A stretch of DNA of 64,000 nucleotides from Sialis fuliginosa. Its lineage: Eukaryota; Arthropoda; Insecta; Megaloptera; Sialidae. The translations under genes were made by a program, and so were the position numbers. Positions within the stretch are counted from its first letter, which is position 1; each line of letters opens with the position of its first letter. The stretch lies in contig OY540816.1 in assembly GCA_961205875.1 (NCBI GenBank), forward strand, positions 19,788,701-19,852,700, in the 5' to 3' direction. Below are positions 3,170 through 58,755 of this stretch, piece by piece. The notes beneath the pieces are model-generated. The model was not told where the DNA came from. It made no database searches and worked only from the letters and a program-made list of their open reading frames with translations.

Positions 3170-4300
3170 TTACATTTTAGATTTAAAAATATTTTGCTAA
3201 TTCTATTTTCTAAGCCCAGCGGTTGTATTTACCTATGATTTCCGGGATCGTAAATGTTTTCTACCCTGATTACTCCAGGGTCGCATCCTCTTTCTTCAGT
3301 TAAACCTGACGTTTAATTAACTGGCTGTATGTTTTTCAATAAAAGCAACGAAAGAAAAAACATTTTACTTTTAAATTGATTTTGCATGTAAAATTGATGA
3401 TAATCAAAATATCATTGTGGGCCAGATTATATTTCCTCGTCTGTTATAATATACATAGTATTCGTATGCGTGTTAGTTAATATAAAAATAATACAGCTTT
3501 ATTTTTTTAAATGACAACTCGTGTTCGATATATCCATCTTAATTAATATATAAATATCGGTATGGAGAACCATATGTACATGACTTCCATGTTCTTTCTA
3601 TCTTTTTAAATAATTTTTAAATATACATTTTTTTAAATATTTTATTTATATAACCTACTACTATGAATATACATATCGTAATACATTAAAAAAACATAAA
3701 TACTTACAACGGTTACAGCTCTTTTTGCCAATTGTATATAAATATTAGTTTTCTAATGTCAAAAACATAAAACACATTCGTAGAAAAACTAATTTAACAA
3801 TTTGAATTTAGTTATTAGTATTTAAAATTCCAATTTTAAGTGTGTTTTTCACCCCTTTAATGGCTGTTTAGGCACGTACAAATAATAAATGTCCCTTAGA
3901 TTCAATTGAACTGCAAATGTACGAAATCTTATCAAAATTAGTGAGATAATACTCGCAATATTCACTTTTTAGACGAAAAACGTTACAAAATTGCGAATAT
4001 TTCCAAAACCCCTAATCCGATTTGCACCAAAATCAATAGGTCTGGAGTACTCACTGAGACAAACATTTTCCCCAAAAATAATTCAGATCGGTGCATTTTT
4101 ACAGTAGTTATCGTGAATGAAAGAAAATTCTACATCCGCACAGACACACAGACACACGCTCAGCCGCAATGCGGAAATTAACTTTTCTTTAAGTTTTGAA
4201 GTTAGTACAATCAGAATTTGTCATTTTCTCGGACACGATTTTTCGATGGTATTACAATACTTCCATTTCTTTCAGAACATGGAAGTAAAAACACTGGTGC
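3170..4300. other. A+T-rich desert with an old repeat tail
   Basis: No gene seen. The segment about 4005-4160 (ending in a run of CAGACACACAGACACAC) has the wording of an insect repeat tail but no definable ends. Confidence 0.4.
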
Positions 4301-4720
4301 GATATCATCAGGCCTAAACCACTGGACGTATCGTAGCCATATTCACACCATATGTTCGTTTGGTACTCGTAGATTTTTTTGACCCAACTCGGGTCGAGAT
4401 ATTTATAAAAAATGTATTTTTTTTCATATAAAAAAATTATTTTTGTATGTGATCTCATCAGGCCTAAATTACTGGACGTATCGTAGCCATATTCACACCA
4501 TATGTTTGTTTGGTACTCTGATAAGTTTATAGATTTTTTTGACCCGATTCGGGTCGAGATATTTCTAAGAATTGTATTTTTTTTTTCATATAAAAAATAC
4601 ATCAAAACGTTGGTTTTTTGTATGTCATCTCATCATGCTCAAACTACTGGACGTATCGAAGCCATATTCACACCATATGCTCGTTTGGTGCTCCGTTAGA
4701 TTTATATTTTTTTAATTAAT
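4301..4720. repeat. Three direct repeats, 150-175 bp units
   Basis: A unit beginning CTCATCAGGCCTAAA and containing CTGGACGTATCG and CATATTCACACCATATG occurs three times, starting at about 4301, 4451 and 4626. The 117-codon minus-strand frame 4605-4252 comes from two of these units and has no other support. The array lies just inside a Helitron-like 3' end at 4881 and is probably part of that element. Confidence 0.85.
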
Positions 4721-4852
4721 TTATTTATTATATATTTACGAAAATGTGTTTTTATGTTCTGATTTTTAAACAAATTATTTTTGGTTAGAATAACGTTTGC
4801 CGGGTCAGCTAAAACAACAATTACAACCCTCCATACGCGTGAAATATTAACT

Positions 4853-4881
4853 CCCGTGCGAAGCCGGCACGGGCCCGCTAG
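4853..4881 (+). mobile_element. Helitron-like 3' terminus
   Basis: A perfect 7-bp stem, CCCGTGC (4853-4859) and GCACGGG (4867-4873) around a 7-nt loop, is followed 4 nt later by CTAG (4878-4881) and then T. A short hairpin just before a CTRR end, inserted ahead of T, is the established signature of Helitron 3' ends. The 5' end was not located; the three direct repeats at 4301-4720 are probably internal. No Rep/helicase frame is present, so any element is non-autonomous. Confidence 0.65.
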
Positions 4882-5321
4882 TATTATTTATAAATTATTA
4901 GAATTAGTCGTTTTCAATTTTCAAAAACCTCTATTTTGATATTATCAAGATTCGTTTATTTCTTCAATATTTCTGTCAACGTTTCTTTGCATTTTAAAGT
5001 GTCGGAAACTTCAATATTATATTTTATATATAAAGTACTGCGTCAGATAATTTTTATATTTTATTTCACTTCAATTTGTAATGTCAATAGACGTGTGTAT
5101 ACTCGTCTGATCTGTCGATAAAGAAGGTGTCTCTTCTATTTTTTCTCATTTTATCTGTCTGTAGGTTTATGTTTACATTTTGCAGATATTTACAATTTCA
5201 CTTCAAATCTCTATACATTTCAAATCAATAAGAACATCGAAAATAGTTTTTCGTTTAATGTTTTAATGCAGGGTCGAGAAATTCAATTTAGAAAATTATT
5301 TTATTTTATTTATAAGATACT

Positions 5322-5600
5322 AACTGTTACCCGCGACTTCGTTCGCGTGGAATTAAGGTTAGTGAAAATAACACCATGAAGTTAGGTTAGATAAATAATA
5401 AAGATTTCTATTATGACATAGTCGATAAAACAGATTTTTTATTTCGAATTTGCACGCTAGATTTTTTATCTAATAAATTTTTCGGAATACAAAGTAGTCT
5501 ATGTCCTTCTTCAGGATGCAAGCTATTTTCCTGCCAAATTTCATCAAAATCGGTTCAACGGTTTAGCCGTAAAAAGGTAACAAACAGAGACTGTCTAATT
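5322..5600 (-). mobile_element. Helitron-like short repeat (CCCGCGACTTCGTTCGCG end)
   Basis: On the minus strand the end has a CGCG...CGCG hairpin followed by GGTAACAGTTA, like the insect Helitron-type 3' terminus GCGGGTANCNGCTAGT. Inside are CCAAATTTCATCAAAATCG, GGTTTAGCCGT and AAAAGGTAACAAACAGA, shared with 16640-16873. A SINE or LINE tail is the alternative reading. Confidence 0.55.
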
Positions 5601-5913
5601 TTTTTTTAACGTTTAAAAAAATTGTGACCGTGTGTAAGAGCCCTGAAAACAAATTCTTTTATAAACATAGAGAGTGTTTTTAATATTCTCAATTTAAATA
5701 ATTTCACAAAACAAAAGAAGTTTGTTTTAAATTTATTTTAAGTTGTCTCAAGGAAACATTTTTTGCAAACATAAATAAATAATACGTATTTATGAAAAAA
5801 AATGCATTCTGTTTGTGAAATGATAATTCTTCATTATTTTAAACATTTCTTTAGATAAAATTGTCAGCGTTTTTGTATTTTTCTAACAAAGCGAATAAAA
5901 GAAATATTATTTA

Positions 5914-6300
5914 AGCTGCCCGCGGCTTCGACCGTGTTGTATTCGTTTTTATAAACTTTTGTAAAATTTATAAAATCTAATTCTATTTGTACTGTAAGTC
6001 TGAAAATATTTTTTTACCCCTTGAACTTTGATATACCGCAATACACGTGTATTTTACCTGAAACCTACTTAGTTATGAAGATAAACGTATATCAAAAAAC
6101 ATAGAGTTTAACTCCCTTTTCTTTACCCTTAGGGGTTGAATTTCGGAAAATATTTTCTTAATGAGTGCTTACATCAAATTTTCTATAATTTCATTTTTCT
6201 AGTCCCAAATATTTGGGCTGGGCGTTGATGAGTCAGTCAGTCAGGACTTTCTAGATATAAATATAAAAAATAATTATAAATATATTCAAATTTAGTGGAT
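5914..6300 (-). mobile_element. Degenerate Helitron-like repeat
   Basis: Starts with GCTGCCCGCGGCTTCGACCG, a diverged form of the same GC-rich terminus as at 10164, and contains GGGCGTTGATGAGTCAGTCA, shared with about 10590-10620. Boundaries are approximate. Confidence 0.4.
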
Positions 6301-7010: not shown

Positions 7011-8737
7011 TAACCCGGTGAGCGTTTTTGACCTCTTCTGTATGATCCGATGCCATGTTTATGTTCAGAACACAATCTGACTAATTTCGTTTTAGTCAAT
7101 TTATTTATTTAAGGCAGGCCTGCACAACATAGCGGCCCCCGAAAACTTGGGTGAAATTCATAATATTATAAATTAAAAATAATATTCCCCAACTTATTGA
7201 TTTATCATATTATCTAAAGGTATATATACAGAAAAATAATATAAATATTTATTTGATTTTCAAATAATTAAATAATATTATTATTTTTTTATAGCTTTCC
7301 CCCTGTCATATTTTTTTTCGGCCCGCACAAGTTTTTCATAAAGTAATTACATTTTGAGTTGTTGTTAAGTTAACCCTTTCGCACCTAACGGGTTATATAT
7401 GTCCTAGTTGTACATTTGTGCGCTTAAAATGAAGATAGCAGTAATTGTTTTGACAATTTTTTTTTAATTTTTGACCTCTGTAAATTTGATAAATCAATGA
7501 ACCAATAATTATTTAGCCCAGGGGTGTATGGGGTAACCGATCACTTAAATTTGTATATTGTCTTTTTTGTTTTTTACTAAACCCGCCCGCATGTTTTTTT
7601 AAATCAGTAAATGCCCATAAAAAATACGAGTATATTTTACAATATTTAATATTCATAATACAAAGGTGAGTTTTATTTCTGACAAATTCCATAAAACAAT
7701 TTTATATACATATTAAAAAAATTATTCACATAAACTATATGGAAACAATAAATAATCAGTATTCAAGAATTTATAGTCATACCATGTTGGAAAGTTGGTT
7801 GTGTGGACCTCAAGGGTCGAACCTATGACTTGTTATAATATATGTATAAGATATCTAATGAGTATATGGTTGTGTATGTATGTACACTATATGTACATAC
7901 TTAAGTACTTGACCTGTTTAATTTAAATCGCTTACATTACTTAATAGTAAGTAACATCAGTAATAATTACATACTCTTTATCAGTTGTAGAAATTAACAT
8001 CTAATTTACGCATTTTTTAATATAATGTGTATTAAACTCACGTGTATGTGGGAGGCTAGAGAATTGAATTAGGTCTCGTTAAAATGGTTAATTAGAAAAT
8101 TCTATTATGATATACATATAATACAACTGGCCACGTGCCCTTAAGTAGACAAACTAGATATCATTAGAATTTTTTTACAATTAGTTTGAAGCTGTGCCTT
8201 TTGGGGGTTTTAGGTCTCTCCCCCTATTCCAGTAAGAATTAATTTAGATTAAACTTTATACAGCCCTGTCTAGATACATTTATTTATATAAATAAAATAC
8301 GATAAAAAAAATCCTCCCAGACAAAATATTTGTTCTAATTAAATATGAATACACTATTTCGTTAATACTTATTTATTACAATTATTATCATGCCAATAAT
8401 CAACAGCCTATTGTCTTTATTGAGTGGAATGTTTCATTGATAATATGTTTACAAATTGTTTTTTTGTTTATCATATAGGAAATAGTATATAAAGACAAGT
8501 ACTTTTTTATTTCAATTATGAAATAATTTCAAGTATTGTTATTAATTTAAGTTCTAATTATATTGATAAGGATTTATAAAATATTATATCTTTGTTTTTA
8601 GTTTTCATAAGAATTTAGTATAATAGGTAATAATCCTATTATCATTTTTTCAGTCTTTATTTTATTTTATAACGATGAATTGATAAATATTTTCAAAACG
8701 TTCAAAAATTTCTTAGTAAAAGAAAAATAAACAAACC
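7011..8737. other. A+T-rich desert
   Basis: No gene, defined transposon end or RNA gene was recognised. Confidence 0.4.
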
Positions 8738-8740
8738 TCT

Positions 8741-9315
8741 CGTATCTTCGATATTACGAGGAAGCAAAACTAACCAAAATATTATTTAAATCTTAATAAA
8801 ATTTAGATTCAGCCGAACTAAATAAAAATCAAATTGAATTTTATAATAGCATAAATTCTACCTCACATTCCTCAAAATTTTTGAATATTTTGAAACCAGA
8901 AAACATTTTTTTTGTATCATTTTAAAACGATCACAAAGCTCTCGTATCTTCGATATTGCAAGGAAGCAAAACTAACCAAAATATTATTTAAATCTTAATA
9001 AAATTTAGATTCAGCCCAACTAAATAAAAATCAAATTGTATTTTATAATAGCATAAATTCTACTTCAAATTCCTCAAAATTTTTGAATATTTTAAAATCA
9101 GAGAACATTTTTTTTAAAACGATCACAAAGCTTTTCGTATCTTCGATATTGCAAAACTAACCAAAATATTATTTAAATCTTAACCTAACCTAACCTAACC
9201 TAACCAAAATATTATTTAAATCTAAATAAAATTTAGATTCAGCCCAACTAAATAAAAATCAAATTGAATTTTTTAATAGCATAAATTCTACCTCACATTC
9301 CTCAAAATTTTTGAA
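8741..9315. repeat. Three tandem copies of a ~200-bp repeat
   Basis: A unit starting CGTATCTTCGATATT and containing AGGAAGCAAAACTAACC, then AAATTTAGATTCAGCC and CCTCAAAATTTTTGAAT, occurs at 8741, 8943 and 9136 (periods 202 and 193). Its first part is the terminal block of repeat family C. The third unit carries an interstitial telomeric tract. Confidence 0.85.
9181..9205 (-). repeat. Interstitial telomeric tract, five TAACC (TTAGG) units
   Basis: Five perfect TAACC units, TTAGG on the other strand, which is the common insect telomeric unit. A 21-bp sequence is repeated on each side (9160-9180 and 9203-9223). The neighbouring units of the tandem repeat carry a single CTAACC at this place, so slippage from that seed is an alternative to telomere insertion during break repair. 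Confidence 0.85.
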
Positions 9316-9525
9316 TGAGTTTCACTCACACACATATGCATACATGAACAAACATATCCCCTCTATTCGGACAGGTATATTGTGTAATAACTCACCTGGC
9401 AAGTAAGTTAGAAAGAGATGAACTCGAGTCGGGCCACCGCGTGAGCGCGCACACTAAAATAATCCAACCAGTTCTGATTTGGCTTTCGTAACAACACGTC
9501 GCGCCCTGCTCTCTAACAAATACCA

Positions 9526-9677
9526 CACGTGGATATCGTAATATATAAAACACGTGGATCACACCGAAAAATATATCCCGTATTCATTTGTTCGAAAAAT
9601 CATTTTAGATTATCACGGTCGTTTTTTGTTTTTGTTACGTAGTATTTTATTTGTGTTGGTTTTTTTTTTTTTTGAAA
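9526..9677 (+). promoter_or_regulatory. Candidate core promoter: two CACGTG boxes, TATA box, 5' leader
   Basis: CACGTG at 9526-9531 and 9551-9556 flank TATATAAAA at 9542-9550. An initiator-like TTCATTT lies at 9584-9590. The start codon at 9678 would give a leader of roughly 90-105 nt. CACGTG is the canonical bHLH E-box, so E-box control is an inference. The 9340-9600 interval appears single-copy and less A+T-rich than its flanks. Confidence 0.45.
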
Positions 9678-9756
9678 ATGAAGCAGTTTAATAAATTGAG
9701 TGATTTTTTGAGAGGATGCTTTGGGTGGCTGGTGAACACGTTTTTTATCCTTGCAG
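9678..9756 (+). CDS. Candidate first coding exon with a transmembrane-like segment (possible tetraspanin N-terminus)
   Basis: The ATG has A at -3 and follows the TATA-type promoter candidate at the right distance. It opens 26 codons plus one base, up to TTGCAG/GTATTG, a phase-1 junction. The peptide has a short polar, basic start (residues 1-13, with K2, K6, R12), then a hydrophobic run at 14-26 (CFGWLVNTFFILA), completed by Gly across the junction. Tetraspanins have this layout: short cytoplasmic N-tail, juxtamembrane Cys, then TM1 with N...F..AG. No later exon was found within the window, so the intron would exceed 54 kb. The donor lacks G at +5 and is not strong. A signal anchor of another family, or a chance frame, remains possible. 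Confidence 0.35.
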
Positions 9757-20575: not shown

Positions 20576-21888
20576 AAGGTACTGGCACCAGTTATGGCCG
20601 CTATTAGAGCAGGGTTTACTGTTTTTGTGATTGACGGACTTCTTTTTGTAATTTTCATGACCTCATGTTACTAATAAAACAAGTACCTAACTCTTTATTT
20701 AATCAATTTAATTAGCAAAGTCCGAAAATATGGTTTATTTTTTTTAAATTAAAGCTTTTTATTTTGTTTATGTTTTTAAAGTAAAACCAGTAATGGGCAC
20801 CAAGAGATGAACACTTGCTAATGATTATAAAATTATAAGTACTACGACACAAAAATTAACGTAAAAACATCTGCCAAGTAAATGCACAGTGCTTCCTCGT
20901 GCTAAATTCACTAAAACCGATAGTGTTCAAATAAATTGCCTGACATTGGTTAACCATTTAATTTTTATACAAATTTTACTAAAAAATCTTAGTTCGAATT
21001 TTTTCTTAAAACGCACCTGAATATTTTTTCATATATTTTTAATTTTTTGACAATTTCAATCTAAATCTAAATTTATGCAAATGTCAAAATGACATTTAAA
21101 ACGTCAAAGTGACATTTAAAACGCCAAAGTGACATTTAAAACGTCAAAATGACACTTAATATATTCAATCAATTATCAATTTAGAAAAACAAAACACGAA
21201 TTTTTAAAATGAATTTAGATAAATCTTTGTAAGGGAATATTTGACAACAAACGTAGTAGACCCATATTATAGGAAATTTAATTCTCTACAAAAAATATTC
21301 TATAAAATTTTCTCGTAACATGTGTCGTTCTTGAGATATCTTGAAAAAATAAATATTTTGGGGTGTCACTCCTCCCCCTTACACACGATTTTGATGATTT
21401 TGAAATGGGACCGTCCTCAAACCAAACCCAACCATCCGACCAAGTTTCAATAATATCGGTTCAGTGGTTCATGAGTTATGCGTGTGACAAGGATTCAGGG
21501 GACAGACGGACGGACGGACGGACGGACACACGGACAGACAGACAGACACGGAACGAAAAGTGTTTGTCTTGACGTGAAACGGATAAATAAATTTAAAATT
21601 TTGAAATTGGAGAACTTTTTTTTGTCTCAATCTGAAACGATCACATAGCTTCTCGTATCTTCGATATTGCGAGGAAGCAAAAATTGAAACAATGTAAAGC
21701 AGATGCTATGATAATATAATAATTAATAAATAAATAGATTTTAATCAAAACGCTGTTTTACAGTTAAGTATCTATTGATTATAATTCAGTAGTGGAAGTA
21801 ATCAAATATCTACAAATATTTCTAATTTAGTACGTGTAATTAACTGTCCAATATTGGGGTTCTGTCCAAGACAGGTACCAGTACCTTA
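20576..21888 (+). mobile_element. MITE family A interrupted by a nested family C repeat
   Basis: AAGGTACTGGCACCAG at 20576 pairs with TACCAGTACCTT ending at 21888. The family A body stops at about 20858 and resumes near 21683 with GAAACAATGTAAAGCAG. The foreign DNA between is a complete family C copy, which therefore inserted later. Confidence 0.85.
20862..21682 (+). mobile_element. Family C repeat, full-length copy
   Basis: Starts AAAAACATCTGCCAAGTAAA with AGTGCTTCCTCGTGC. It carries several GTCAAAATGACATTTAAAAC-like repeats near 21080-21150, CCTTACACACGATTTTGATG and a GACGGACGGACAGACAG tract. It ends CGTATCTTCGATATTGCGAG then GAAGCAAAA. TGCTTCCTCG near one end and CGAGGAAGCA at the other form short inverted ends. 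At least eight further copies occur in the window. No shared protein frame; the 69-codon frame here is not conserved. A non-autonomous element of unknown class. Confidence 0.8.
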
Positions 21889-36130: not shown

Positions 36131-36668
36131 TATCTCTTTTATCAGTTATCCAGAAAGATTTTTTTATATAATAACACGATGATGTTAAAAAATTGCGAAA
36201 GGTGGTTTTGATCTAATATTAAAATTATTACATCTTATCAGAAATATGCTTATCATTTAAAGCTAATAAAAATATTATTTAACTACAATTTGTAGATTAT
36301 ATTTATTGTTAGATTACCTTCTGTAAGTTATATTTATTAATCTATTCCAGTTTAAACACGACGTAAAAAACCATAAGTACTAAAACCTTTGTTAAGTTTC
36401 TACTATTTATGATAATAGTATTAGGAATATAATAATTCTTAAGTTGGTATTACCGGATTTGAACTTGCAGTGATAAAAACGTTTATACCCGTCTGTTCTG
36501 TTGTGTTGGAGAGAGAATTAGTACAAGAAAGAGAGGGATGATTCGGTGCAAAAACCATACAGACAAACCAAACATGTCCGAACTTGATATTTTTTGCTTT
36601 TAGTAGTTTATTTTGTTTGATATACAAACCTGCCACCTGTCTAGTCCCATAAGAGGATGTAGTGTTGG
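36131..36668. other. Single-copy-looking flank of the large transposon
   Basis: A 65-codon minus-strand frame (36636-36439) has no recognisable motif and is not claimed. No other feature. Confidence 0.35.
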
Positions 36669-36690
36669 TACACTGTTAAAAATTTCTTTT

Positions 36691-37128
36691 GTAATTTTAC
36701 AAAAATGTGTAGGAAGTTTTTACGCACCACAATTTTCGGAATTATGGAACACAGTTTTGTAAATTTACTATACAATTTATCACAACTCAATTTTAAACTA
36801 TTACAAATCATCTGTCGCAAAATTACTAATCATTTACTAGACTTATGTTTAGTAATATTACTGTACATTATTCGTAATTTTACTAAGCCAAATGTTTCTA
36901 ATAATTTTAGTAATTTTACAAAAATGTGTAGGAAGTTTTTACGCACCACAATTTTCGGAATTATGGAACACAGTTTTGTAAATTTACTATACAATTTATC
37001 ACAACTCAATTTTAAACTATTACAAATCATCTGTCGCAAAATTACTAATCATTTACTAGACTTATGTTTAGTAATATTACTGTACATTATTCGTAATTTT
37101 ACTAAGCCAAATGTTTCTAATAATTTTA
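36691..37128. repeat. Subterminal tandem duplication, 219-bp unit (left side)
   Basis: GTAATTTTACAAAAATGTG begins two nearly identical units at 36691 and 36910. The 158-codon plus-strand frame here (36705-37181) is simply this repeat read twice. Further GTAATTTTACTAA-like motifs continue to about 37510. Confidence 0.9.
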
Positions 37129-37712
37129 GTAATTTTACAAAAATTTATTGTAATTATACTAGACAATTTATACCAATTTAGTTTAGAAAAATTACAAACT
37201 ATTTGTTGCAATATTACTAACCTTTATTAAAAAATTGTTTAGTAATATTACAATACAATAGTCGGAATTTTACTAAACAAATTAGATTAAATACATTTAG
37301 TAATTTTACAACCATATATCGTAATTTTTCAACCCAACTAATACCAATTTAGTTTCGAAAAATTACAAACTATTTGTTGCAGTATTGAATTTTTACTACC
37401 CAACTTACATCAAGTCAATTTGAAAAAAATACAAACCGCTCGTTGCAATATTACTATGCATCGGGATATAACTTGCATAGCTTTATTTCAATATCAGACT
37501 GTAATTTTACTGAAAAAAATTGTTAAATCAATGAATGCTACAACAGCGTATTTTAGTGTTAAATATAAAATATTTATTAAATATTAATTTATTAATTATT
37601 TAATTAACAATTAAACATATGTCATTAATTATAACAGTGTTATCAATAATTTATATTATGAAAATAATAACATAATTTAATGCTAACACAAATTTTAAAT
37701 TTTTTTTGAAGA

Positions 37713-39082
37713 TTATTCTGACGTTTTGATTGCCACATAATTAATTGCCAAATCACGAGTAATGTAGGCACGGAGTATCTTTCCAATATTCTTGGTTATA
37801 TCTACTGTCTTGTTTATTTAGCATAACAATTTGTAAATCTAAAAAAAGAAAATTATTATTCATGTCTTATAAACGAATTATATAAAATAGGGCTTATATA
37901 AAAAAATAATAATTTTATTTGTGATTACTTACCAATTTTTTTTTAAAATCAACATCATTTTTAATTTTATCATTAAATTTAATAAAACTTTCTTCATTTT
38001 GTAGTGGAAGAATCATGTCAAATTCACTCTCAGAGTTACTGATTTCGTCACTCAAAATGCTTGTTGAATTATGAAGTTTTTCAATGACATTTTCAAGGCT
38101 TTGTAATCTGGTTGAATAATTGGTTAATTGACTTCCTAAATTTGACAAACGTTTGCCGATGCTTACAAAACAGCTCGATATGAATTGATGCAGATCTTCT
38201 GTAACAAAAAAAATCACGTTTCCAATACACATTAAAGAAAAAAAAAACGATGTATGTTTTTACCTATTGTCATTGGTTGATTTGCACTGGTCTCGAGTTT
38301 TTCTTCAGCTTTTTTTTTTACAATCCTTTTTGGATTTAATATATTGTTTGGATCTAATCCGTTAGTGTTGTCTTCATCACTGGAAAATTCCGTTGAAGTT
38401 GACTTAATGTCAGTGTCATCAGATGGGTGACAACATGGGATTGAAATCGATTTAGAATTCAATTTTTTTCTTTTTGTGTGTTGACTTTTAGGATTAGATG
38501 AATCTAACATTAAAAAAAATATATTTGTTGCATATTTATAACAAAAAATTTTACCGAAAAAAATTAAAACTACTTACGAATTTTTATACCAAGATCGTCT
38601 GTCCATTTCAATGCTGCTTGACTAAATTGTTTGTTAATGAGCTCTTTATTCTTTGCAACAAATTTGCGCTTCAGAGCCTTCTTATCAGTATCTGCTTTTT
38701 TTTTGCAGATTCTTCATTTGCTGTCGAGTATACATATGGTTTTGTTTCTAACTCAACGATTTTATTTTCAGCTTCTTTATAAGTATCTAAAAAATTGATT
38801 AATAATATGTCAAAGTAAAAAAATTAATATTGTGGTAAAGAATTTATTTTAAAATAACATATCATTACTTACGAGCACTTCCGCGAATATCCACTAGAAA
38901 TGTTGGCTATGTAGATTTGGGTGGTTCTAAATTTTTCACCATTTCTTGCAGTTCTTCGCATACATTTGGATCATCAAGCAGGCCTGGCATATATTTGCAA
39001 TATACCTTATCAGAATCTTCTTCAAAATGAAGCCATGTATATATAATATAATATAATATAAGACGATATTTATGATCCATGT
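37713..39082 (-). pseudogene. Five-exon DUF4806-like protein gene, broken by one stop and one frameshift
   Basis: Exons (minus strand): 39082-38873, 38786-38578, 38503-38264, 38198-37933, 37808-37713. All four introns are 65-124 nt with GT-AG ends, and the phases agree once one base is restored to a 9-A run near 38701. Exon 1 has ATG at 39080, a cysteine/acidic stretch (CKYMPGLLDDPNVCEELQEM) and an in-frame TAG at 38909-38907, after which the same frame continues as PTFLVDIRGSA. Exon 2 is Lys-rich and ends QAALKWTDDLGIKI. Exon 3 is Ser/Asp/Lys-rich, likely disordered. Exon 4 has a coiled-coil-like part, then LPLQNEESFIKFNDKI. Exon 5 has ILRAYITRDLAINY and stops. The last two match the pattern of DUF4806 (LPL..EE...F...L, then R.I......LA..Y), a domain of unknown function common in arthropods. 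An additional 5' exon may exist: ATTTGAAA/GTAAGTAAATC at 41561 is a strong donor upstream. Confidence 0.7.
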
Positions 39083-39830
39083 CTATAAAAAACAAAACAA
39101 AATGTGGGTATGTGTACTTATGTACACGCGTTAGAAGTTATACTTATTTGTCGTGAAATTTTAAAACACTTATCAAAATTTGATTACACATTTCAAATAT
39201 TAAAATCTTAGTTTTGGAAAAAAATTATTTGAAACAAGAAAATATTTCTTTTGCCTTAAAATTTTAACTCCAAAAATAAAAATCATTTGTTTAGACAAAT
39301 GGCTACAGCTTAAAGATGTAAGTAGGTGAAAAAGTTACCTGAATTATAACAGATATATATTCAATAAACGTTAAAAACAATTATTGGATTAAACAACAGA
39401 ATTATAACAAATCACTTGTAGCAGCATCAATCTTTACACAACAAATTTTTAATAACGACTGTTCAAAAATCGTATTATTGCTCATACGCAGTAGCTTAGC
39501 ATCGTGAGAAAATAAAATGTAACAAAATTTACCCCTTCCGCCAGCGCGTTCACATGAAACTATGTTCTATACCAGTATTTCTCAAACTTTTTGAATTGAA
39601 TCACTCATAATTGTGATTAATAGCGAAATTTAATATCAATAATAATTAATAACAAGTTAATAACTTATCTCGAGTACATCTTTGAACAAAATATTATTTG
39701 TATATTTTTCGACATTAACTTAACTAACTAATTGAGTTTACTAAAAATATTTTAAATTAAATTTAATGTGATGAGTGAGCGCGGCTTTGTTTTGATGTTG
39801 GTCAGTACTGAAAATACCATTTCGTATAAT

Positions 39831-41200
39831 AGGGCGAGCGGATTACAGCTATTTCGAGTACACTAACCAACCAATCGACGTTCTAGTGGGTAAAAATGAT
39901 TTTATTGAATTCTTTATATTTTTCTGAGAAAAAACATCTATATACATGATATTTTTTTATGCGGTCCTTCAATAGGTACACACATTTTTTTGTTTAATAA
40001 ATTTAAATCTGCATTAAAAAATCTGAAAAAATTCATTGGATTAAAATAAACATTTTTTGTCTCATAAACTTTTTTTTGAAAGCTATAGTTTTGAAGATAA
40101 AAAATATTTTAACTTTAAAAATAGCGAAAAATTCGTATATTTGTGAATTTTTTTCTCGGTAACTAATTGTTCAATCAGAATAAAACATAAACAAAAAGAA
40201 TCAGCCAACTTTAAACTATAATTAGATTTTTTTTCATTTTGATTATTACTGTAATTAAATGTAAAAACTTCATTAGAGCCGAACTCACTCCTTGCGCCGT
40301 AAATAGATACCATGGCTGGCTACAATTTTCGTTTAATAATTGAAATATTTAAATACTGGGATGAAAGTTTCAATAAAAACACTTTAGAATATTTTTATTG
40401 CACATTTATTTGTTACAATTATTTTCTTTATTGTTACACTTATCAAAACATCTACAAACTGAACAACATTTTAAATCTAAATCCAAACAAGAGCATGTTT
40501 TAGCTGTACAAGGAAATTTTCCGCAACAAGAACAGAAATATTTTTTGTAGATGTTCTGATAAGTATAATATTATAATAAAGAAAATAATCGTGACAAATA
40601 AATGTGCAATAAAAATATTCTAAAGTGTTTTTATTGATGCATTCATCCTAGTATTTAAATATTTCAATTATTATTAAATGAATGTTGTAGCCAGCCATGG
40701 TATCGATTTACGGCGCAAAGAGTGAGTTCGGCTCTAATGAAGTTTTTACATTTAATTACAGTAATGATCAAAATGAAAAAAAATATAGTTATAGTTCAAA
40801 GTTGGCTGATTCTTTTTGTTTTTGATTTATTTTGATTGAACAATTAGTTTCCGAGAAAAAAAATCACAAATATACGAATTTTTCGCTATTTTTAAAGTAT
40901 AAATATTTTTTATCTTCAAAACAATTGATTTTAAAAAAAAGTTTATGAGACAAAAAATGTTCATTTTAATCCAATGAAGCTTACATAATTTTTTCAGATT
41001 TTTTAATGCAGATTTAGATTTATTAAACAAAAAAATGTGTGTACCTATTGAAGGACCGCATAAAAAAATATCATGTATATAGATGTTTTTTCTCAGAAAA
41101 ATATAAAGAATTTAATAAAATCATTTTTAGCCACTAGAACGTCGATTGGTCGGTTATTGTCATTTCTAAGCGAGCTAGACTCGATAATCCGCTCGCCTAT
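39831..41200. repeat. Giant palindrome, arms ~630-655 bp, loop ~85 bp
   Basis: Left arm 39831-40458 and right arm 40544-41200 are inverted copies, with matching landmarks GGGCGAGCGGATTA / TAATCCGCTCGCC, GAGCCGAACTCACTC / GAGTGAGTTCGGCTC and CCATGGCTGGCTACAA / TTGTAGCCAGCCATGG. Small differences between arms show that they have started to diverge. The palindrome probably arose by inverted duplication of the 3' part of an ancestral element. Confidence 0.9.
40406..40534 (-). pseudogene. C-terminal remnant of a cysteine-rich (CXC-like) protein
   Basis: Minus-strand frame of 42 codons plus TAA, spanning the palindrome loop and the inner left arm. It contains CSCCGKFPC, TCSC, KCCSVCRCFDKCNN and ends in NCNK. 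Spacing is CxCCx4Cx4CxCx6CCx2CxCx3CNN, close to the zinc-binding CXC/TCR pattern seen in tesmin-like proteins, MSL2 and some transposon proteins. Twelve of the first 33 residues are Cys. The frame continues from the loop into the left arm, so the left arm is the original copy. The N-terminal part of the protein is gone, replaced by the mirror arm. Function unknown; DNA binding would be the inference. Confidence 0.5.
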
Positions 41201-41951
41201 AAATAAGTTGGTTGCAAATGGCAAGAGAACTGTCATTGTTAATTCAGCGAATAGTGGACACTGTTTTCACACCAAGTAAAAAAGAATTGTTTGCTTACTA
41301 AACTCGGTTTATGTCATCAATTTTTCTGCGACCTTCCTAGGAGTCGCGACCCACACTTTGAGAATCACTGTTCTATACTTGTGTCGGTATGTCAAAAGAA
41401 ACGCAACAATGATTTTTTCTATGCTGGTCGGGACTTGCAAATTCGAATAAAATTAAAGGTTGTTTTACACCGGCATATGGAGCATTTATAAAGGTTGTTT
41501 TAGGCATTTTGACCAGTTTATATATAATTCATAAATAATAATTAGCAAAGATTTACTTACTTTCAAATATAAAAAATGTTGATATGCAGATTTGAACATA
41601 CCCTATTACACTTACAATTAAATTTTATCACTATTTTTTACCACAGTGAATAATTCGGTTCTTTCACAATTTTTTTTATACACTTGATCGATTCTATGAG
41701 GTTTTTTTTATAAAACTAACATATTTCATATTCAGAAACAACATGTATATTAAAACATTTTAATAAAAAAAAAATATTTTTTTATAATCTATACTTCATA
41801 CTTGCAATTCAAGTATAAATGTTTGCTACTAATTTTACTTAGAACTGCATTCAAATTAAATTTTAAATCTGCATAAGTCACAATTTTATAAAAATGCAAA
41901 ATAAATATACCAAGTTTTATACTTGAAACTACACAGCAGAATTAGAAGATT

Positions 41952-42960
41952 ACATAAAACTATATGATTGTAAGAGACACTAGTAAAAATATAAACAAAT
42001 CTAAAGTAATTAAAGTTTTACAATTTTTCAATCACTTTTTGCAATTTGGATTACGTATTTCAGTTAGTCATTTTTTTGATAACTGTAGTAAGATTAGACT
42101 ACAAATAGGTATAGAAATTTTACAAAATTTTAGACTTGAAATTACAAACAAGAATTGTAAAAATACATAGCGCTCATGACTTGAAAGAAATTTTGTAAAA
42201 ATGCAAACAGAATTTTTAAAAAAAAAGTAATGATTTGTAAATTTCCTGTAATTGTAACTGCAAGTTTCGGTTAGTAATTTTACTATTAATCTTGGTAAAA
42301 TCAAAATCCGAATATGTGTAGAAATTTTACAAAGTTTTAGACTTGAAATTACAAATAAGAATTGTAAAAATACATAGCGCTCATGACTTGAATGAATTTT
42401 TGTAAAAATGCAAACAGAATTTGAAAAAATAAATAATGATTTGTAAATTTCCAATCACTTCTTGAGATTGTAATTGCAAATTTTGGTTAGTAATTTTACA
42501 GATAAATGTGGTAAAATTAAATTCCGAATATGTGTAGAAATTTTACAAAGTTTTAGACTTAAAATTACAAACAAGAAATGTAAAAATACATAGCGCTCAT
42601 GACTTGAATAAATTTTTGTAAAAATGCAAACTGAATTTGAAAAAATAAATAATGATTTGTAAATTTCCAATCATTTCTTGTGATTGTAATTGCAAATTTT
42701 GGTTAGTAATTTTACAGATAATTGTGGTAAAATTAAATTCCGAATATGTATGGAAATTTTACAAAACTTTAGATTTAATTCTACAACTTTTAATGGTAAA
42801 ATTACAACAAGTTTCTGACGAATACAAAAAATTTGTAAAATTGCAACCTGCTTAGTACTCTTGTTATTACAAATTGCAATATTACTACGAATGCGTTTGA
42901 AAATTCCAATACAATACGAGAGTTTGTAATTTTACAAAGCAACTGCTTAGTAAAAATGTA
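41952..42960. repeat. Subterminal repeat array (right side), ~207-216-bp units
   Basis: CATAGCGCTCATGACTTGAA recurs at 42166, 42373 and 42589, each followed by TTTTTGTAAAAATGCAAAC and TAGTAATTTTAC. About three and a half units are present. Motifs of the GTAATTTTAC type run in the opposite sense to those behind the left end, so the two sides form very long imperfect inverted subterminal regions. The 128- and 71-codon frames here are repeat artefacts. Confidence 0.85.
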
Positions 42961-43233
42961 GTAAATTTACAAAAATTTTTAACAGTGTAGCACTGGAAAA
43001 AATTGCAGTATCTTAGTTTTTTTTCTAATTTATCATGATGAAATGTTCTAAATCGTTTGGGATTAATTGTTTTGTATATGTATCTTGTATCAGCAGATGT
43101 TGAAATGTACAAGAAATTTATTAAATTATATATACAGTAAATACAAATCTTTTTTTACGAATTATAAGGGATTTAAAGTCTAGCTCAATAGCACTGGAAA
43201 TACCTCAGTTATGTTTTGACATAGAATCTAGAT

Positions 43234-48300: not shown

Positions 48301-48311
48301 GACAATATTTT

Positions 48312-49027
48312 TTGTATTTTAGTCGATATTTGTATGACGAGTTGAAGTTTACTGCAGGAAATTTCACTAAAAAATTTTGAATTTTTTATTTCGTTAAAAG
48401 TATGTTTATTGTATAGAAAATGACGTGAAAAATTGTTTGTTTCAAACCGCAGGTCTGTATCTCATACCGTTCTCGAGATATAGCCTTTCAAAGTTTTATT
48501 TTTTTCAAATTTTTGGAGAAAATAGGCCATAACTTTTGAACGCGTGGTCGGAATTGATTTTAGTTGACGGATTTGAAATCAGCGTGTCAAAATCTATATA
48601 ATGACATGAATAATACCTTAAAACTCGGAAAAAAAAAATTCACGAAAAATCGAAAAAATTCAAAGGGGTATACCTTAAAAAAATGTCGATTTTTGACCAA
48701 AATTTTTTTGTCGGATTTTAAAGTATTATACATGTCATTATATAGATTTTGACACGCTGATTTCAAATCCGTCAACTAAAATCAATTCCGACCACGCGTT
48801 CAAAAGTTATGGCCTTTTTTCTCCAAAAATTTGAAAAAAATAAAACTTTGAGAGGCTATATCTCGAGAACGGTTTGAGATACAGACCTGCGGTTTGAAAC
48901 AAACAACTTTTCACGTCATTTTCTATACAATAAACATACTTTTAACGAAATCAAAAATTCAAAAATTTTTAGTGAAATTTCCTGCAGTAAACTTCAACTC
49001 GTCATACAAATATCGACTAAAATACAA
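48312..49027. repeat. Long perfect-looking hairpin, family G, arms ~355 bp
   Basis: The sequence is an inverted repeat about its centre GGTATACC (48667-48674), with outer ends TTGTATTTTAGTCGATA and TATCGACTAAAATACAA. Arms match almost base for base with scattered differences, and there is virtually no loop. The same 62-codon frame therefore appears on both strands (48564-48752 and 48775-48587). A transcript from either strand would fold into a double-stranded RNA of about 355 bp. Confidence 0.9.
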
Positions 49028-49677
49028 GAAAATAAGACGTAGAATCATTTAGTCACTATATAAATATTTATATAAGAATTTAAAAAAGTAAAAGCTTGAA
49101 TTTAAAGTGTTTCATAACTAGTTTTTTTTTGTTAATAGGAGGGGGAGGATTGACAAAATATGCTTCCCTTATTAAAAATTTCACGCTTCGCCACTGTTCT
49201 ATATAAATTTATTAAATATAACTTATCAAGCACTTCATGATACTTCAAGAGAACGGTTTGATAGTGCTTGTTAGCTCACAAATTTTGTTAACTTCTTTAT
49301 AAAAGATTAAAACGGATGAAAGCTTTTTAAATAATGTGGAAAATATGCTTACATAATTATTTTGAGGTAATTACACTATCTATGTAACTGTTTTACAATT
49401 ACTTTGACGAAACATTTTTCACAAATGGATAAACACAAAATTTTTGTGTCTTTGTAATAACATGTTAAACAATTAAATGGAGAGATATTTTAATTAATTA
49501 AATAATATGAAAATACCTACACGAAAATTAAAAATTATACGTTGTAAATTATAAAAAAATTAAAAAATTTTCTCTTTTATTTATTTATTATGAATGTATC
49601 TAATATTATACCCTTTTTTATTTACTGACACAAACAATTTTTTAATATTTATAATTTTATCCATGCATAGATAATAT
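49028..49677. other. A+T-rich DNA with a MITE H scrap
   Basis: Near 49220-49310, CACTTCATGATACTTCAAGA and TTGTTAGCTCACAAATTTTG are a broken end of family H. No gene. Confidence 0.45.
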
Positions 49678-58061: not shown

Positions 58062-58755
58062 AAAAAAACATCTGCCAAGTAAATGCACAGTGCTTCCTCG
58101 TGCTAAATTCACTAAAACCGATAGTGTTCAGATAAATTGCCTGGCATAACCATTTAATTTTTATAAAAATTTTACTAAAAAATTTTAGTTCGAAATTTTT
58201 CTTAAAACGCTCCTGAATATTTTTTTCATATATTTTTAATTTTTGACAATTTCAATCTAAATCTAAATTTATGCAAATGTCAAAATGACATTTAAAACGT
58301 CAAAGTGACATTTAAAACGCCAAAGTGGCATTTAAAATGTCAAAATGACATTTAATATATCCAATCCAATATCAATTTAGAAAAACAAAACACGAATTTT
58401 AGAAATAAATTGAGATAAATCTTTGTAAGGGAATATTTTACAACAAACGTAGTAGATCCATATTATAGGAAATTTAATGCTCTACAAAAAATATTCTATA
58501 AAATTTTCTCATAACATGTGTCGTTCTTGAGATATCTTGAAAAAAGAAATATTTTGGGGTGTCACCCCTCCCCCTTACACACGATTTTAATGATTTTGAA
58601 ATGGGACCGTACTCAAACCAAACCCAACCATCCGACCAAGTTTCAATAATATCGGAGTGGTTCATGAGTTATGCGTGTGACAAGGATTCAGGGGACAGAC
58701 GGACGGACGGACACACGGACAGACAGACAGACACGGAACGAAAAGTGTTTGTAGT
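58062..58755 (+). mobile_element. Family C repeat, 3'-truncated
   Basis: Starts AAAAAAACATCTGCCAAGTA, has the GTCAAAATGACATTTAAAAC-type repeats, and stops after GAACGAAAAGTGTTTGTAG. It is followed at 58756-58960 by a diverged half of the 15-kb tandem repeat. Confidence 0.8.

Follow-up and report, generated by a model that had tools for sequence, protein, structure and literature searches.

A recently multiplied non-autonomous transposon of Sialis fuliginosa carries the relic of a DUF4806-like gene

Introduction

Does a transposon-like segment of the Sialis fuliginosa genome represent a genuine mobile element, and did the spliced gene inside it once serve that element or was it merely carried? 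We asked these questions of a 64,000-nt stretch of contig OY540816.1 (positions 19,788,701 to 19,852,700; assembly GCA_961205875.1), hereafter called the window, in which positions 36671 to 42987 (window numbering, used throughout) are bounded by inverted repeats and enclose a minus-strand gene with a DUF4806-like product. DUF4806 is a multi-copy orphan domain of animals with almost no literature. As we describe below, the segment is one copy of a transposon that spread with its gene already dead.

Results

A bounded transposon with many copies

The first-pass annotation of the window had proposed inverted ends with TA flanks. The window copy indeed has perfect 14-bp terminal inverted repeats (TIRs), in inverted orientation and with TA on either flank:

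36671–42987, unstranded: whole non-autonomous transposon copy, 6317 bp with the nested hAT-like element included (~4.5 kb without it); same boundaries in 20/20 other full copies
36669–36670, unstranded: left TA target duplication; 2-bp duplication in 21/21 aligned copies
42988–42989, unstranded: right TA target duplication; 2-bp duplication in 21/21 aligned copies
36671–36684, plus strand: left TIR, CACTGTTAAAAATT; exact match, genome count of TA plus TIR
42974–42987, minus strand: right TIR, CACTGTTAAAAATT; exact match, genome count of TA plus TIR

Exact matches to CACTGTTAAAAATT occurred twice in the window, both at the element ends, and allowing up to two mismatches gave 5 matches compared with 5.02 expected. 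At that tolerance the string is about as frequent as expected by chance, and thus the ends alone are weak proof and it is the copies that establish the element. The same count is what might favor an artefact or segmental duplication, with inverted repeats that arose by chance on either side of a diverged host gene, but copies on many contigs with exactly the same boundaries, differing flanks, and 2-bp duplications already refute this explanation, to which we assign a negligible probability.

First, we searched the window's own genome (392 Mb) with the left terminus (36660–37100) and scored the best 40 of 175 first-look candidates, the window copy among them. All 40 scored left termini matched at 99–100% identity, with match starts lying 1–11 bases outside the proposed boundary. 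Second, 20 of the 39 other scored loci were retrieved, and each ran from TIR to TIR over 6.27–6.53 kb, with zero or one mismatch per TIR (the window copy reads CACTGTT..AACAGTG) and with flanking sequence that varied from copy to copy. Together with the window copy, these sequences gave 21 aligned copies with a mean pairwise identity of 99.65% (range 99.43–99.92, gaps excluded). Third, the duplicated bases were TA in 20 of the 21 copies and CA, on both sides, in the remaining one (L024), which suggests that these two bases are target and lie outside the TIR. Finally, the exact TA-plus-TIR string was found at 160 genome sites, compared with 5 for a reversed control. Among the 100 of these 160 sites that were listed, 55 were counted as having neither an exact partner nor a known left end; 40 of the 55 were retrieved and 15 were not. 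The retrieved sites included 32 right ends of the family (98.6–99.7% identity), and a left end, in every case the TIR variant CACTGTC, lay 6.2–6.6 kb away for 24 of these 32.

Together, the 40 left termini and 32 right ends mark no fewer than 72 separate loci at which an end of the element matches, and the true number is probably higher. The first-pass annotation had staked its proposal on the existence of further copies with these boundaries and on their containing the gene; the at least 72 places bear out the former, and all 20 full copies shared both ends and the spliced gene.

Several observations limit this census or weigh against it. Eight of the 40 retrieved unpaired sites were unrelated, chance matches; TA preceded 22 of the 24 partner left ends, the exceptions being L083 and L089; and 8 of the 32 right ends had no left end within the stretch 6.2–6.6 kb away. 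One of these eight (L070) is the full copy L102, and the other seven were not retrieved further; another of the eight, L078, carries the junction of the nested hAT-like element in L109. Copies were also sampled from the best-scoring matches, so that relatives of greater age or divergence, or of a different build, may be missed. We conclude that the bounded multi-copy transposon is real and that its family multiplied recently in the host genome.

The gene was dead before the burst

A minus-strand gene of five exons and four introns, as previously annotated, was present in 21/21 copies, with GT..AG at all four introns:

38873–39080, minus strand: exon 1, interrupted at codon 58 by an in-frame TAG; 21/21 aligned and 12/12 further copies
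38578–38786, minus strand: exon 2; frameshift at an A-run in 20/21 copies
38264–38503, minus strand: exon 3; aligned copies
37933–38198, minus strand: exon 4; first part of the DUF4806-like match
37713–37838, minus strand: exon 5; in-frame TAA in 21/21 copies; remainder of the DUF4806-like match, which needs the join of exons 4 and 5

In the window copy the introns measure 86, 74, 65, and 94 nt, which corrects an earlier range of 65–124 nt, and the two lesions first reported become at least three (the TAG in exon 1, the frameshift in exon 2, and the TAA in exon 5). The exons had been said to join in phase; they form a single frame if the lesions are read through and not otherwise. A qualification is that one of the 21 aligned copies lacks the exon-2 frameshift, and four (L019, L022, L025, and L028) have an additional length change in exon 1.

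The whole gene was found in 21/21 aligned copies and its exon-1 part in 12/12 further copies. Thus, 33/33 copies carry the gene (12 of them checked at exon 1), in agreement with the earlier suggestion that gene and element move together. Nucleotide diversity per site among the 21 copies was 0.0035 in exons and 0.0015 in introns, so that exons were not more conserved than introns, and was 0.0039, 0.0030, and 0.0038 at codon positions 1, 2, and 3, respectively; 108 variable columns were singletons versus 43 that were shared. The protein thus shows no sign of selection during the burst, and its gene had already died in the common ancestor of these copies. Because the gene is dead in every aligned copy, it was not needed in cis, and because the same stops occur in all of these copies, the transposition proteins were made elsewhere and acted in trans. 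The element therefore spread without autonomy, as a passenger mobilized in trans.

A gene that died before the burst leaves these copies unable to separate a former element gene from captured cargo. One alternative is that a host DUF4806-like gene was captured with its introns, never served transposition, died, and hitch-hiked. Its being dead in all aligned copies, and hence dispensable in cis, fits this alternative, which is countered by its position as the sole gene recognized in an element whose ends carry dyad arrays that would suit an end-binding protein. We regard capture as possible, at somewhat less than even odds.

Two further observations concern this region. At 38814–38815, within intron 1, 33 bp are missing from the window copy; 19 of the 20 other aligned copies have them in whole or part, so that the window copy is a minority form at this intron. 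A candidate upstream coding exon at 41507–41379 (minus strand) was rejected and is not claimed, as its phase is incompatible with the exon starting at 39080; positions 41379–41507 (minus strand) hold a 43-codon open frame that begins with ATG and ends exactly at a GT inside the duplication flanking the hAT-like element.

A probable DUF4806 match of the product

The read-through product matched the Pfam DUF4806 profile (PF16064) with 17 bits (E 0.0076), and exons 4 and 5 joined matched with 20.2 bits (E 0.00074). The match covered profile positions 5–58 of 90 and left the end of the domain unmatched. Exon 4 alone gave no match, indicating that the match needs the exon 4–5 splice. Shuffled sequences matched DUF4806 in 0/10 cases, with a best E of 0.038 for any family, and the assignment is helped by the fact that the first-pass annotation had named this family beforehand. 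Two results speak against it. First, scores of 17–20.2 bits are under the Pfam gathering cut-off for DUF4806 (25 bits) and come from a product read through stops. Second, a reversed control matched unrelated families with a best E of 0.0005, and E-values of this size are therefore unsafe for such a composition. No protein homologue was found at E up to 1 among 2149 candidates. Solved structures searched with the C-terminal piece returned only three designed proteins (E 2.3 to 3.6). PF16064 had 0 matches in the whole genome, an uninformative result given that the control was detected in 0/14 genomes and that introns split the domain, which is interrupted by an intron and by stops in every copy seen. 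Hence, what stands of the earlier DUF4806 claim is a match across exons 4 and 5 that does not reach the family cut-off; the match is probable, and we name the product DUF4806-like only.

DUF4806 has been described, in the accessible text of one paper, as a subtype of the BEN domain, citing Pan et al. 2023 (PMC11075544), and for BEN proteins sequence-specific binding to DNA is described (PMC10080584, accessible text). The accessible parts of two genome papers report an expansion of DUF4806 in Hydra (counts of 69 and 54 for the two species versus 0 to 6 in the five other species of the table; PMC7642931) and its enrichment among the genes of a beetle (PMC13270666). The presence of the domain in ordinary annotated genes, in the accessible records for these two Hydra species, Anopheles, and zebrafish, supports capture of a host gene, whereas the placement of DUF4806 in the Hydra table among expanded transposase and related DNA-binding domains argues, suggestively only, in the opposite direction (PMC7642931). 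A search of the DUF4806 literature, with most subscription papers outside its scope, revealed no transposon connection in the accessible texts, and none of the papers found there on the BEN domain and transposons concerned such a link, to judge by the titles.

Subterminal arrays share a dyad

Tandem arrays, which the first-pass annotation did not mention, lie inside both ends of the element:

36674–37456, unstranded: left subterminal tandem array of 219- and 171-nt units; 11 of the 12 left dyads, the twelfth being at 37501
41908–42890, unstranded: right subterminal tandem array of 216-nt units; six dyads within 42274–42970

Left and right arrays show only short, weak likeness (e.g., 79% over 57 bases). 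They have 128 9-mers in common, compared with a mean of 58.5 for 454 random pairs of window segments (95% point 92), but one random pair shared 233, the maximum and more than the arrays. The best 10-mer common to both arrays, GTAATTTTAC, is part of the dyad GTAA-NN-TTAC. Twelve such dyads occur at the left, six at the right, none between, and two elsewhere in the window (57.7 kb), although tandem duplication of the units inflates the count in the arrays, which weighs against its significance. Eleven alternative arrangements of the same half-site letters had 0 occurrences in the arrays. The dyad is present in both arrays and lies 17–20 bp or less from both element ends.

A nested hAT-like element predates the burst

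An insertion beside the gene was overlooked in the first-pass annotation:

39573–41370, unstranded: nested hAT-like element of 1798 bp, flanked by the 8-bp duplication TTCTATAC (39565–39572 and 41371–41378)

Its ends, CAGTATTTCTCAAAC and CAGTGATTCTCAAAG, are of the CAG..CTG type, which is typical of hAT elements, and the target duplication has the 8-bp length of that group. Most of the insertion is a foldback (39860–41160), a near-palindrome with 88% identity over 1.3 kb, and a cysteine-rich short open reading frame (ORF) fragment lies in the foldback loop at 40409–40570 (minus strand). Six-frame pieces of at least 25 amino acids from positions 39081–41800 gave no Pfam match to a hAT transposase at E up to 1. 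The hAT region was present in 21/21 aligned copies, and its left junction was free of mismatches at 14/14 loci tested, 12 of them beyond the 21 aligned copies. A probe joining the two flanks matched by its left half only in 40/40 scored cases (the best 40 of 330 candidates), and a 35-bp empty-site pattern with up to three mismatches had no match. Because the hAT-like element is in all aligned copies and no empty site was found, it is older than the burst.

Two longer copies were considered as autonomous elements and rejected. L029 spans 8.8 kb from one exact TIR to the other and is the wrecked element enlarged by 2.33 kb of inserted sequence at its positions 3957–6288. The insert has long inverted ends starting TAGTCCAGTAACTTT and an apparent 3-bp TAA duplication (edges read by eye) of a Harbinger-like kind. 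This insert holds broken gene fragments with a cysteine-rich tail; its best Pfam match, DUF1681 at E 0.27, is not above chance. L102 is likewise the wrecked element, here with 2.2 kb inserted into its right array (reverse-complement positions 7457–9685); the inserted sequence contains inverted similar ORF fragments.

Termini and target duplication resemble those of CMC elements

The six-frame scan of 39081–41800, which lie between the gene and the right array, also found no Pfam transposase domain at E up to 1, as the first-pass annotation had noted for conventional transposases. Within the same interior, neither a DDE transposase with the C(2)C and H(3–4)H motifs of the CMC/CMCT group nor a Tc1/mariner-type DDE/D transposase was found. 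Members of the CMCT group have 5'-CA..TG-3' termini in most cases, according to the accessible text of PMC12730594. The element has CA..TG termini, and its target duplication, 2 bp in 21/21 copies, falls within the 2- to 5-bp range of CMC/CMCT elements and differs from the 3 bp of plant En/Spm (CACTA) elements. By sequence, the termini appear to resemble those of TA-target CMC elements, but because no transposase was found we do not file the element in CMC/CMCT.

Tc1/mariner elements insert at TA, and the TA duplication in 20 of 21 copies would fit membership in that group rather than in CMC, with arrays and gene being incidental. The CA duplication of L024 argues against this placement, and short TIRs, long subterminal arrays, and CA..TG ends suit a CMC-type element at least equally well. 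We judge a Tc1/mariner origin to be improbable.

Other features of the window

Five perfect TAACC units, a rotated form of the telomere motif TTAGG of insects, occur at an internal place (9181–9205). A 0.7-kb near-palindrome (93%) at 48306–49034 has a related copy (91%) 48 kb away at 462–936. Positions 20863–21567 and 58064–58752 are 94% identical and belong to a dispersed repeat, of which the window also holds several shorter relatives.

Discussion

We favor, with a probability of roughly 0.55, a model in which a cut-and-paste family recently multiplied as a non-autonomous element and the gene is the relic of an accessory DNA-binding protein for the dyads. The reported assignment of DUF4806 to the BEN type of DNA-binding domains raises the possibility that the gene once encoded a TnpA-like accessory protein that bound the element ends. 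Transposition proteins made elsewhere would recognize the terminal repeats and subterminal arrays. The relic gene would be a former element gene whose product, an accessory protein with a DUF4806 (BEN-type) end, would have bound the putative GTAA-NN-TTAC sites and helped to pair the ends, by analogy with TNPA on plant CACTA elements. In the order of events that we envisage, the transposase gene would have been lost, the accessory gene would have decayed, the hAT-like element would have landed beside the accessory gene, and the resulting wreck would have been amplified by an unfound relative. It counts against this model that no transposase and no intact relative were found, as do the sub-threshold DUF4806 score, the reversed control, the lack of protein homologues at E up to 1, and the inflated dyad count.

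More broadly, DUF4806/BEN-type proteins might be end-binding accessory proteins of animal transposons with CACTG ends and TA targets, recognizing subterminal dyads like GTAA-NN-TTAC, and part of the DUF4806 expansion in arthropods and Hydra might then be transposon-borne. This generalization is doubtful and offered tentatively, but a young, high-copy family with both a gene relic and end dyads makes a transposon end-binding origin of DUF4806 proteins testable. In addition, the element illustrates cleanly how a nested wreck can be amplified in trans as a whole.

How does the element compare with known systems, as far as these are described in the accessible parts of the sources? CNEST (PMC12810828) and ESTA (PMC12730594) elements share its CA..TG ends and 2-bp TA duplication, and the CNEST clade includes unclassified transposases from diverse animals (PMC12810828). 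CNEST ends, however, start with CACGG and have 33-bp TIRs, and CNEST has its own transposase, whereas the Sialis element has 14-bp TIRs starting with CACTG and no transposase was found. The animal CACTA element SmTRC1 resembles it in having a 2-bp duplication in 7/14 copies and differs in its CCC ends, long TIR, and Transposase_21; a TNPA-like second product, unrelated in sequence to plant TNPA, has been proposed for SmTRC1 (PMC1636069). A soybean CACTA element has a 3-bp duplication, compared with 2 bp here (PMC2613891). Plant CACTA/En-Spm elements have an accessory DNA-binding protein, TNPA, whose counterpart in the Sialis element is a prediction; the subterminal repeats are bound by TNPA, and copies that are defective can be mobilized in trans if they retain their cis sites (PMC2613891). 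In their CACT.. ends, their repeated subterminal motifs, and the movement of defective copies in trans, these plant elements are like the element described here (PMC2613891).

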